DNA from: a virus
DNA length: 35,871 nucleotides
Reading direction: 5' to 3' (one strand)
Virus record (IMG/VR): IMGVR_UViG_3300008450_000177
Location: 1 to 35,871 of that record
Within the stretch, counting starts at the first letter, position 1. Each line of letters starts with the position of its first letter. The notes below the pieces were generated by a model, which did no database searches, was not told where the DNA came from, and was given only the letters and a program-made list of their open reading frames with translations. This document shows, one piece after another, positions 12,586-21,272 of the stretch. The position numbers and the translations under genes were made by a program.

Positions 12586-12959
12586 TGTGGTCAGTATTAT
12601 TTCCAGCACTAATACCAGCACTAACAGATGGTGTCCGTGGTATCTTCGCTAAGTTTACTGGTGGCGCAGGTGGCACACCTCAGAATGTAACAGAGCGCAT
12701 CCAGCTTATGCAAGCAGAGACAGGTAGACTGCAAGCACTAGCAGAGATAGACAAGCCAATAGGTGAGCCTGACAAATGGGTAGTTAATCTACGCTCTGCC
12801 TTCAGATACCTAGCCATCATTGTTATTTGGGTGGCTACCATTGGCGCTGTGTTTACTCCTACCGTACCAGAAACCATTACTCTTATTATGCTTGACTTAT
12901 CAGGCGCGTGTATGTCGTTCGTAATTGGTGAGCGCATGTACTTAACCCTACGAAAATGA
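12585..12959 (+). CDS. Holin-like protein, 3TM GTA holin type
   Basis: This 124-residue protein has an N-terminal amphipathic or hydrophobic segment and an Arg/Glu-rich middle (NVTERIQLMQAETGRLQALAEID). The conserved KPIGEPDKWVVNLRSAFRYLAIIVIW region and a final hydrophobic segment (TITLIMLDLSGACMSFVIGERM) follow. The pattern fits the 'holin of 3TMs' family found in gene transfer agents and phages. It follows the endolysin with a one-base overlap, as expected for a lysis cassette. Confidence 0.75.
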   Translation: MWSVLFPALIPALTDGVRGIFAKFTGGAGGTPQNVTERIQLMQAETGRLQALAEIDKPIGEPDKWVVNLRSAFRYLAIIVIWVATIGAVFTPTVPETITLIMLDLSGACMSFVIGERMYLTLRK

Positions 12960-13414
12960 CAGTCGTTAGATGGAAGGACGATAGAAAAGAATACTTAAAA
13001 GAATATTCTAAAAGGCCTGAGCAAAAGGAAAAAAAGAAAGCATACCAAGAAGCCCATCCAGAACAGTTTGCTGAATATTATAGAGTGTATAGAGAACGTC
13101 ACCCAGAAAGAAGTTTATTTAGAGCTGCAAGAGACAGGGCTAAAAAAAGAAATCTTGAATTTAATTTAGAATATTCTGATATTGTTATTCCTGATTATTG
13201 TCCAGTATTAGGAATTAAAATTATTTTAACAGCGGGCAGAGGAACTCCCGGTGGAAAATTAAATTCTCCATCATTAGATAGGATTGATAACTCTAAAGGT
13301 TATACAAAAGATAATGTTCAAGTTATTAGCCATCAAGCAAATTCAATGAAATTTACTGCAACAAAAGAAGAGCTATTAAAGTTTGCAGAATGGGTATTGG
13401 AGACTTATAAATGA
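12956..13414 (+). CDS. HNH-type endonuclease, free-standing
   Basis: The 152-residue protein has a very basic, Arg/Lys/Tyr-rich N-terminus (KEYLKEYSKRPEQKEKKKAY). A nuclease-like core follows: Cys82 in DYCPVLGIKI, then SPSLDRIDNSKGYTKDNVQVIS (residues 104-125) and HQANSMK. That LDRIDxxxGYxxxNVxVIS signature is typical of small phage HNH nucleases. It overlaps the holin gene by four bases and the phosphoesterase gene by four bases. Its AT-rich, AGA-using text differs from both neighbours, so it is probably a mobile insertion. Cleavage specificity is unknown. Confidence 0.75.
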   Translation: MTVVRWKDDRKEYLKEYSKRPEQKEKKKAYQEAHPEQFAEYYRVYRERHPERSLFRAARDRAKKRNLEFNLEYSDIVIPDYCPVLGIKIILTAGRGTPGGKLNSPSLDRIDNSKGYTKDNVQVISHQANSMKFTATKEELLKFAEWVLETYK

Positions 13415-19143: not shown

Positions 19144-19812
19144 ATGCACTATTACCAGCATCACATTGGCGACTATCGTAAAGACACTAGCCACCTCACC
19201 CTACTAGAGCATGGCATTTACCGCCAGCTGCTTGACCTATACTACATTTCAGAAAAGCCACTAGATGCGAACGCATTGCGTTTGATATGCGCTCGAACTG
19301 CTGACGAACAAGCGATGGCAATGCAATTGCTTAACGAATTCTTTATAAAAGATGGCGATAAGTATTCTCATGCTCGTTGCGATGCTGAAATAGAATTGTA
19401 TCATGGCAAGTCAACCAAGGCAAAAGCTAGTGCAAAAGTAAGATGGAATAAAAACAAAGACTTACAGGATGCGAACGCATTGCGAACGGATAGCGAAGGC
19501 AATGCTAACCATAAACCAATAACCATTAACCATAAACCATTAACCAATATAAAACCTAAACGCGCTGAAGCGCTTGAAGATTACTTCGAAGACTTTTGGT
19601 ATAAGTATCCTAAGAAAGTAGGAAAAGAAGCTGCACGTAAAGCCTGGAACAAAGCAAACCCAGACATCATTAAAGTTATTGATGCTATCAACTGGCAACG
19701 AGAAACTAAACAATGGCAAGCAGAGGATGGTAAATACATTCCTAATCCTGCTACATACTTAAACCAAGGTCGCTGGATGGATGAAGCGCCTACACAAGAG
19801 GCACCATTCTAA
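19144..19812 (+). CDS. DUF1376 replication-initiator-like protein
   Basis: Residues 1 to about 90 are a DUF1376 domain: MHYYQHHIGDYRKDTSHLTL, EHGIYRQLLDLYYISEKPLD and later SHARCDAEI. A basic linker (STKAKASAKVRWNKNKD) and an Asn/His/Lys/Pro repeat (NHKPITINHKPLT) follow. The C-terminal domain FWYKYPKKVGKEAARKAWNK..PNPATYLNQGRW is typical of phage replication proteins. Together this resembles a lambda O-type initiator with a wHTH front end. The repeat is the translation of 7-bp DNA iterons, as lambda ori lies inside O. The next-but-one gene looks like its helicase-loader partner. Confidence 0.75.
   Translation: MHYYQHHIGDYRKDTSHLTLLEHGIYRQLLDLYYISEKPLDANALRLICARTADEQAMAMQLLNEFFIKDGDKYSHARCDAEIELYHGKSTKAKASAKVRWNKNKDLQDANALRTDSEGNANHKPITINHKPLTNIKPKRAEALEDYFEDFWYKYPKKVGKEAARKAWNKANPDIIKVIDAINWQRETKQWQAEDGKYIPNPATYLNQGRWMDEAPTQEAPF
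19507..19548. repeat. Six tandem 7-bp iterons, candidate replication origin
   Basis: AACCA recurs at exactly 7-base steps at 19507, 19514, 19521, 19528, 19535 and 19542, each followed by two A/T bases (AACCATA, AACCAAT, AACCATT and so on). The AT-rich run ATAAAACCTAAA follows. The array is inside the initiator-like gene, the same arrangement as the iterons of lambda ori. Origin function is inferred. Confidence 0.6.
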
Positions 19813-20363
19813 TGATTGCCGTATTATTTGCAAGGTCAGACAGTGCATACAAAGATGATGTTGACTTTGATGTGTATGATATTCATCGTGATGCAAGACA
19901 GTTTTGCAATAAGATTCCTGTGTTAGCACATCCACCTTGTCGAGCATGGGGTCAATTAAGCCACATGGCTAATCCAAGAGAGGGAGAAAAGCAATTAGCT
20001 TATCTAGCATTAGCGCAAGTCAGATTGAATGGTGGAGTCCTAGAACACCCAGCCAGTAGTAGGCTATTTAAAGAAGCCAACCTGCCACTTGGCATGATGG
20101 TTGATGAGTTCGGTGGATTTACTATTGATATAGACCAGTATGACTTTGGCCATGTAGCACACAAGGCAACCAAGTTATACATTTGTGGTATTGATATGAA
20201 AGACTTGCCACCTATGCCGCCTAAAAACACAGCGCCTACTGATAGGTCAATATGCGGTAATGTAAAAGGCACGAAACGCTGCACACAATATCAACGGGAA
20301 TACACCCCCCCCCAATTGATTAATTGGTTAAAACAAATATGCTTAAGGATTAAAAATGATTGA
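19812..20363 (+). CDS. Phage protein with cytosine-MTase-like motifs
   Basis: The 183-residue protein contains VLAHPPCRAWGQLSHM (about residues 36-51), GGVLEHPASSRLF (about 74-86) and a later FGHVAHKATKLYICGI. In order these resemble the PPC, ENV and QxRxR motifs of C5 DNA methyltransferases. The N-terminal SAM-binding FxGxG motif and a target-recognition domain are not apparent and the protein is short. I recall it as a conserved phage family without proven function. Its 3' end contains a C9 run (20305-20313), so the last 18 codons depend on that count being right. Confidence 0.5.
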   Translation: MIAVLFARSDSAYKDDVDFDVYDIHRDARQFCNKIPVLAHPPCRAWGQLSHMANPREGEKQLAYLALAQVRLNGGVLEHPASSRLFKEANLPLGMMVDEFGGFTIDIDQYDFGHVAHKATKLYICGIDMKDLPPMPPKNTAPTDRSICGNVKGTKRCTQYQREYTPPQLINWLKQICLRIKND

Positions 20364-20784
20364 TACAGACAAACTCGCTTTTAAAGAAATGTTATGCGCG
20401 GTGTTTACTATTTATGGCAAGCCGTTACCTGAGAAAGAAGTGTTGCGTGTTTGGTGGCATAAGCTGGAGCGCTTTGACTTCAATGTGGTTGGCCGAGCCT
20501 TCGACCATTGGACAGACTCGCCTAATAAACTGCCACAGCCTGCTGATATTATCCAGCTATGCAAGCCACGCGAGGCTGAGTATCATGCCTTGCCAGCGCC
20601 AGTAAGCTATGCCGAGAACAAGCAGAATGTGGATAAGCTAAATAAGTTTATTGCTGATAAGCTAAAGCCCAAGACTAATTACCGTTCATGGGTTACTCGC
20701 ATATTGGATAACCCACAGAATTTCCCGGAGTCATCAGTGCAAGCAGCACAAGAGGTAAGCATTAGTGCGATGGGTGGCGTATGA
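20356..20784 (+). CDS. Helicase-loader-like replication protein (P-like)
   Basis: The 142-residue product shows FKEMLCAVFTIYGKPLPEKE, VLRVWWHKLERFDFNVVGRA, then FDHWTDSPNKLPQPADIIQL. This YGKPLxxxxLxxWWxxLexfdfxxVxxAfxxh..PxPADI pattern is common in phage proteins next to initiators and is compared to lambda P, which delivers host DnaB to the origin. The C-terminal half is polar and variable. It overlaps the upstream gene by eight bases and lies in the replication operon. Loader function is inferred from context and pattern. Confidence 0.6.
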   Translation: MIDTDKLAFKEMLCAVFTIYGKPLPEKEVLRVWWHKLERFDFNVVGRAFDHWTDSPNKLPQPADIIQLCKPREAEYHALPAPVSYAENKQNVDKLNKFIADKLKPKTNYRSWVTRILDNPQNFPESSVQAAQEVSISAMGGV

Positions 20785-21272
20785 ATCAAGATGAATTAAA
20801 AAACTTATTGCATTATGACGATGAAACTGGATTGCTTTATTGGAAAACAAAATGCGCTAGGAATGTTAAAATTGGCGATGTTGCTGGAACTAATAAGCAT
20901 TGGTCAAATTATATTTTTATTAGAATTAATAATAAAATTTATCCAGCACATAAACTTGTTTGGCTTTATCATCATGGTGTTTATCCAAGCGGATGTATAG
21001 ACCATGTGAATGGCATTAGGAATGATAATAGAATAGACAACCTAAGGCATGCAACAAGAGCGCAAAATAGCCAAAACATGAGAATGTTTAAAAGCAATAC
21101 ATCTGGCGTAAAGGGAGTCGATTGGCAAAAAGGCTCACAAAAATGGAGAGTTAGGTTGCAAGTAAATCATAATAGAATTGATATTGGAAGTTTTTATTGT
21201 TTGGAATTAGCTGAGCTGGTGGCAAATGAAGCTAGGGCAAAGTATCATAAAGAATTTGCAAGGGATAAATAA
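20781..21272 (+). CDS. HNH homing endonuclease with AP2-like domain
   Basis: The 163-residue protein has a complete HNH_3 signature: YPAHKLVWLYHHG (54-66), CIDHVNGIRNDNRIDNLRHA (72-91) and RAQNSQNM. An AP2-like DNA-binding domain follows (SGVKGVDWQKGSQKWRVRLQ, residues about 108-160). Such genes are free-standing homing nucleases or intron remnants. It is joined to its neighbours by 4-base and 1-base overlaps and is notably more AT-rich than the loader gene before it, suggesting a recent insertion. Confidence 0.9.
   Translation: MNQDELKNLLHYDDETGLLYWKTKCARNVKIGDVAGTNKHWSNYIFIRINNKIYPAHKLVWLYHHGVYPSGCIDHVNGIRNDNRIDNLRHATRAQNSQNMRMFKSNTSGVKGVDWQKGSQKWRVRLQVNHNRIDIGSFYCLELAELVANEARAKYHKEFARDK

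Follow-up and report, generated by a model that had tools for sequence, protein, structure and literature searches.

Positions 19470–19548 of the window, the whole 35,871-base stretch of viral DNA that was analysed, probably form a two-part phage replication origin embedded in an initiator gene, as judged from sequence comparison. An 11-bp tandem array there abuts a run of heptamers on its 5′ side, and the two together occupy the linker-coding part of a DUF1376 gene, between the segments that encode its two domains (Table 1). Both arrays are family-wide, fixed in order and register, and under selection as DNA, not as protein.

Table 1. Positions of the features, counted from the first base of the window.
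Feature	Position	Strand	Basis
DUF1376 (YdaU-type) replication initiator gene, 222 aa, holding the putative origin	19144..19812	+	PF07120 E=2.9e-25, PHROG
N-terminal domain (DUF1376), predicted winged helix	19144..19407	+	AlphaFold2 mean pLDDT 90.9, PDB neighbours
Outlying exact 17-bp copy of 11-mer sequence, GATGCGAACGCATTGCG	19264..19280	+	Identical to 19468-19484
11-bp tandem array: TGCGAACGCAT, TGCGAACGGAT, AGCGAAGGCAA, then TGCT; candidate duplex sites for the initiator	19470..19506	+	Lag-11 match, relatives
60-bp AT maximum of the gene, over the heptamers and the bases just 3′	19501..19560	.	73% AT
Six AACCAWW heptamers in tandem; candidate for the opening or single-strand element	19507..19548	+	Exact match, TRF, codon and spacing tests in relatives
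C-terminal domain (FEDFWYKYP..YLNQGRWMDE), freely exchanged among relatives	19558..19809	+	11/119 share it
Putative helicase-loader gene, 142 aa	20356..20784	+	48% identity to L072 neighbour gene

The DUF1376 gene and its repeat arrays

Phages and prophages commonly encode DUF1376 proteins, with at least 600 viral matches, and the family is still listed as being of unknown function. The protein encoded in the window matches the family model across residues 2–84 with 88.9 bits, compared with a curated Pfam cut-off of 30.1, and its PHROG matches are a primosomal protein (9327, 4e-50) and replication initiation proteins (9474 and 270). Membership in the lambda O family is without support, the Pfam match being to DUF1376 only and none of the PHROG matches being labelled O-like. 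At the protein level, the nearest named relative comes from Methylophilaceae phage P19250A (42% identity). In the AlphaFold2 model of the N-domain, helices span residues 20–36, 43–47 and 53–66, and wing strands span residues 68–70 and 73–75. Its PDB neighbours are winged-helix domains, a common fold; because their VIA Z scores are only about 7 and a Foldseek search with the domain gave no match at E ≤ 0.001, the prediction is restricted to "winged helix".

The six AACCA cores begin at 19507, 19514, 19521, 19528, 19535 and 19542. Two A/T bases come after every core, as the earlier note had described, and the stretch translates in frame +1 of the ORF as NHKPITINHKPLTN. Tandem Repeats Finder detects the array independently (period 7, 5.9 copies, 19506–19546), and an exact scan finds no other array like it in the 35,871-base record. 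Shuffling the gene among synonymous codons, a null that leaves the protein sequence unchanged, produces a six-AACCA run with a 7-bp step in 5 of 5000 trials, and base-shuffling the whole window 200 times gives runs of 2 at most. The AT-rich run noticed earlier is also confirmed: the 60 bp starting at 19501 stand at 73% AT, compared with a mean of 59% across the 42-bp windows of the gene. The trend recurs in 111 relatives, with 65% AT in the array, 64% over the following 20 bp and 53% over the whole gene. The GC skew of the window turns near 19 kb, which is uninformative for an origin because gene orientation changes there too.

The 11-bp array, absent from the earlier note, has a lag-11 match of 19/26, compared with 10.5 in synonymous shuffles (P = 0.0002). 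The outlying 17-bp copy of its sequence lies about 200 bp upstream within the N-domain coding region, encodes the peptide DANALR at both sites, and is also found in the close relatives L072 and L455.

Selection on the repeat DNA among relatives

When viral contigs were scanned for exact matches to four AACCA cores at step 7, at least 120 loci were found. Among the matches listed, 110 of 116 exact 7-step arrays lie in DUF1376 genes, all on the sense strand. Of the listed arrays that fall in ORFs, 110/119 are in genes given a DUF1376 N-domain by an iterated profile, and several of the remaining ORFs are truncated copies from the same family. The AACCA scans at each step are read as family shares, not as totals. 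A reversed-core control (ACCAA at step 7) was poorly designed because AACCAA arrays match it too; when arrays with a preceding A are set aside, 11 are left among the matches listed, two of them in DUF1376 genes and resembling variant cores. The bias of a DNA search was avoided by drawing relatives from viral contigs with an alignment of the N-domain alone (A1) and from bacterial genomes with a nine-sequence subset (A3). Step-7 AACCA pairs number 177 in the viral relatives chosen in this way, compared with 20.7 after synonymous shuffling, and 84 in the bacterial-genome relatives, compared with 9.6.

These repeats might be a protein feature, if selection acted on the amino acids of a disordered linker (such as NHKPITN) and the DNA repeat were only a consequence. 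Such an explanation would suit repeats that are in frame, lie in an inter-domain linker and often encode a similar peptide among relatives, yet it is made very improbable by the codons themselves. In linkers picked by peptide motif with no DNA condition, N is encoded by AAC in 120/120 cases, P by CCA in 97% and 88%, and T by ACC in 95% and 92% in the viral and bacterial sets, whereas outside the motif in the same genes AAC makes up 50–55% of N codons, CCA 32–37% of P codons and ACC 29–37% of T codons. Third codon positions are thus nearly fixed within the motif and free elsewhere, and the periodicity is lost in same-protein codon shuffles. Additionally, the variable linker residues are the chemically opposite K and E, which share the codon letters needed by the repeat. 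The DNA cores are also kept at other steps: among the matches listed, DUF1376 genes account for 36/116 AACCA arrays at an 8-bp step, many of them near-identical copies of one lineage, and for 23/111 at a 6-bp step, and the peptides encoded by these arrays, such as KPSNHLTNEPSNQ, NQNQNQ and QPEPEPEP, are unrelated. The adjoining 11-bp array, whose period is not a codon multiple, encodes a different peptide in each of its types. The earlier view that the heptamers are not a simple amino acid repeat holds, and the outcome it had raised as adverse, relatives keeping the amino acids and losing the DNA periodicity, is the opposite of what was found: N, P and T codons are fixed, and AACCA outlasts spacing changes that ruin the peptide. 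A coiled-coil reading, 7 and 11 being coiled-coil periods too, was considered separately and rejected in view of the prolines, the 6- and 8-bp variants and the codon fixation.

Arrays of 6–8 bp occur in about 119/133 sampled genes (~89%), 74 with AACCA and 45 others (synonymous-shuffle P ≤ 0.04), and about 10% of the sampled DUF1376 genes are without a clear heptamer array. The heptamer core differs by lineage, with CACCAGA, CCAGACT, ACCCAAT and AAACAAG among its forms; in most of the array-bearing genes it contains CCA. For example, the CACCAGA/CACCAAA variant is found in Polynucleobacter and other loci (L636, L640, L491 and L533 among them), and the unit is CCAGACT in L497, L514 and L525. 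Eight of the ten cultured phages examined carry heptamers, some of them degenerate, with 11-mers adjoining in most; the arrangement extends to cultured phages of Methylophilaceae, Pseudomonas, Vibrio, Acinetobacter and Moraxella hosts. Short tandem repeats can come from slippage. A microsatellite-like or chance low-complexity origin of the arrays is nevertheless extremely improbable: the array is near-universal in a divergent family, keeps its order and orientation and has a shared core, and exact 7-step arrays are rare outside DUF1376 genes among the matches listed.

A second initiator-like family, with an N-terminus of the form NGYQLSRxWFDFxFEN and no confident Pfam match found, is likewise enriched in AACCA arrays at step 7 (19 vs 2.5 under the synonymous null) and at step 8 (29 vs 4.2). 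Its loci include L219, L220, L232, L298, L312, L332 and L535–L614, and some of its members have a C-terminal domain of the window's type. In an HTH/DnaD-like family, an AACCA array is present in 1/12 loci; because that one is the query itself, no wider role in other initiator families is claimed.

Types of the 11-bp array and domain exchange

Within the last 45 bp before the heptamers, the mean match across 179 distinct genes is 0.53 at lag 11 and 0.47 at lag 22, compared with 0.19–0.33 at other lags. In 155 non-redundant genes, the lag-11 match reaches 0.503, compared with 0.373 under the synonymous null (Wilcoxon 6e-25), and both unbiased subsets agree. The 11-mers fall into at least six sequence types; clustering yields 13 groups, six of them with at least three members. 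Recurring units, picked out by eye from the upstream sequences, include CGTTCAACGNN, TGCGAACGCAN (that of the window), AACCCAGNNGG, CCCCCTAATGC, CTGAAATCAGN and CACGAAACGTG, and several of these are short palindromes. The register between the 11-mers and the first heptamer is fixed in most members of the main types. The window's 11-mer type also stands directly upstream of the heptamers in the Polynucleobacter loci and L491.

Analysis of gene pairs suggests that the type of 11-mer goes with the N-terminal winged-helix domain and not with the C-terminal domain. Specifically, among 245 pairs with N-domain identity above 0.6 and unrelated C-domains, 55% share the same 11-mer type, and in pairs alike only in the C-domain the 11-mer similarity equals the baseline. 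This correspondence may reflect linkage alone, because the array and the N-domain adjoin on the DNA. No simple recognition code was found, since types A and D have nearly identical predicted HTH residues (ARQIGMR); covariation of N-domain residues with 11-mer type, for which relatedness is a confounder, gives signals outside the HTH as well as within it.

The two domains themselves are almost uncorrelated in similarity across relatives (Spearman 0.05), with the arrays at their junction, and among the 119 array-bearing relatives listed the N-domain is present in 110 and the window-type C-domain in only 11. Such a mosaic would be expected if the arrays were mainly recombination joints for swapping initiator domains, with the repeats persisting as mediators of exchange. 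Exchange, however, needs neither a fixed order and register of 11-mers and heptamers, nor fixed codons, nor 11-mers that track the N-domain, and this explanation is accordingly judged improbable; domain exchange at the arrays is probably a by-product.

Proposed origin mechanism and comparison with known systems

In the mechanism that we propose, the DUF1376 winged-helix domain would bind the 11-bp array at about one site per helical turn, so that bound molecules would stack on one face. The bound complex would then open the AT-rich 7-bp array directly beside the 11-mers. This 7-bp array may be retained for easy melting or for the sequence of its single strands, ACCA in one and TGGT in the other; tolerance of 6-, 7- and 8-bp spacing fits a single-strand reading better than recognition on one duplex face. 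The C-terminal domain, together with the neighbouring loader, would finally put a DnaB-type helicase of the host or phage on the open strand. Heptamers, as the near-universal companion of the 11-mers, are possibly a melting or single-strand element. The earlier note had read the heptamers as lambda-ori-like iterons bound by the DUF1376 protein: iterons within the initiator gene are strongly supported as a DNA constraint, with origin activity putative, and the proposed binding gives way to evidence that points instead to the 11-bp array as the site that corresponds to this protein's DUF1376 domain.

The genes around the putative origin are consistent with this scheme. The protein encoded at 20356–20784 is 48% identical over 120 aa to the product of the gene adjoining the DUF1376 gene of L072, which in turn matches a helicase loader (phrog_2289, 2.7e-9), and the loader-like function assigned to it earlier gains support through this homologue. 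Its own matches are only phrog_10105 and phrog_8159, both of unknown function, and no Pfam family was found for it. Downstream of the DUF1376 genes of relatives lie P-like, DnaC-like or other helicase loaders, or DnaB; in the annotated phages psageK9, ValSw3-3, Seahorse, IME285 and phPA-G, the downstream gene is a helicase loader, primase/helicase or DnaB. Between initiator and loader in the window, a 183-aa ORF (19812–20363) matches only phrog_12600, of unknown function (6e-48). An ORF for an HNH/AP2-type homing endonuclease (phrog_99, 20781–21272) directly follows the loader gene, and the ORF at 12956–13414 reads like another of the HNH type.

Plasmid iterons also serve copy control, and the arrays could be an autoregulation element instead of an origin. 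The DUF1376 protein would then bind its own gene, as operator or at the RNA level, and limit expression or copy number, with replication starting elsewhere. The predicted winged helix and the location of the site within an initiator gene would accommodate such a role, but an operator would require no universal AT-rich 7-bp array next to variable sites and no location 330 bp into the gene, and the neighbours are helicase loaders and helicases. We consider it unlikely as a replacement for the origin reading, although the two functions can coexist.

Within the origin reading, a close parallel is the lambda ori, which lies within gene O of lambdoid and Stx phages (PMC7466680). In both, the initiator gene contains direct repeats together with an AT-rich region, and a helicase-loader gene, putative in the window, is a neighbour. 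In contrast, the window's initiator is DUF1376 and not O, its repeats are of 11 and 7 bp where lambda has four to six longer iterons, its AT-rich part also consists of tandem units, whose core is shared across the family, and its 11-mers come in many types. Iteron plasmid origins also have tandem initiator sites adjoining an AT-rich region, as here, but plasmid iterons are usually longer and are not forced to be initiator coding sequence; a search with the DUF1376 portion of the query found no DUF1376-driven small plasmids under 38 kb.

The basal unwinding system of bacterial oriC consists of DnaA-boxes and DnaA-trios (PMC8287927). As a mechanistic analogy only, it shares with the window putative double-stranded initiator sites and, next to them, a short-period array presumably read single-stranded; the window differs in having, as far as seen, no DnaA/AAA+ initiator, in its period of 7 (6–8) instead of 3, and in its location in a gene. 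Moreover, the DnaD recognition element comprises pairs of 5'-TnnT-3' in single-stranded oriC at variable distance (PMC10201434). TGGT, the complement of each ACCA, conforms to TnnT, and the variable distance between TnnT motifs has a counterpart in the 6–8-bp spacing here, a resemblance of motif only.

Tentatively, the arrays may represent a family-wide, two-tier class of phage origin, in which fast-changing, often palindromic 11-mers would set which initiator binds and near-universal ACCA/TGGT 7-mers would be read single-stranded by the initiator or loader, both being coding sequence, as a phage counterpart of DnaA-box plus DnaA-trio. The linker peptide would then be dictated by DNA, since the arrays are written in the coding sequence of the initiator. 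Iteron origins in initiator genes are known from lambda; the involvement of the DUF1376 family, the double array, its types and its spacing variants are new relative to the open-licence literature, in which no description of the DUF1376 11+7 double array, its types or spacing variants was found. If the origin reading is correct, a short DNA pattern would pinpoint the origin in hundreds of genomes, the DUF1376 domain would gain an assigned job, and natural initiator–site pairs would be at hand for studying how initiator specificity changes; the 6-, 7- and 8-bp variants bear on the duplex versus single-strand reading of the second array.

The E. coli Rac prophage gene ydaU also encodes a DUF1376 family protein and is adjoined by ydaV, a gene for an ATP-binding protein. 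It differs from the window in that heptamers are absent and the 11-bp signal is weak (P=0.06). In the linker of this gene (L695:5120–5977 in E. coli K-12), repeats resembling TGTTCAA/TGTTGAA recur about every 11 bp and might be the sign of a Rac origin.
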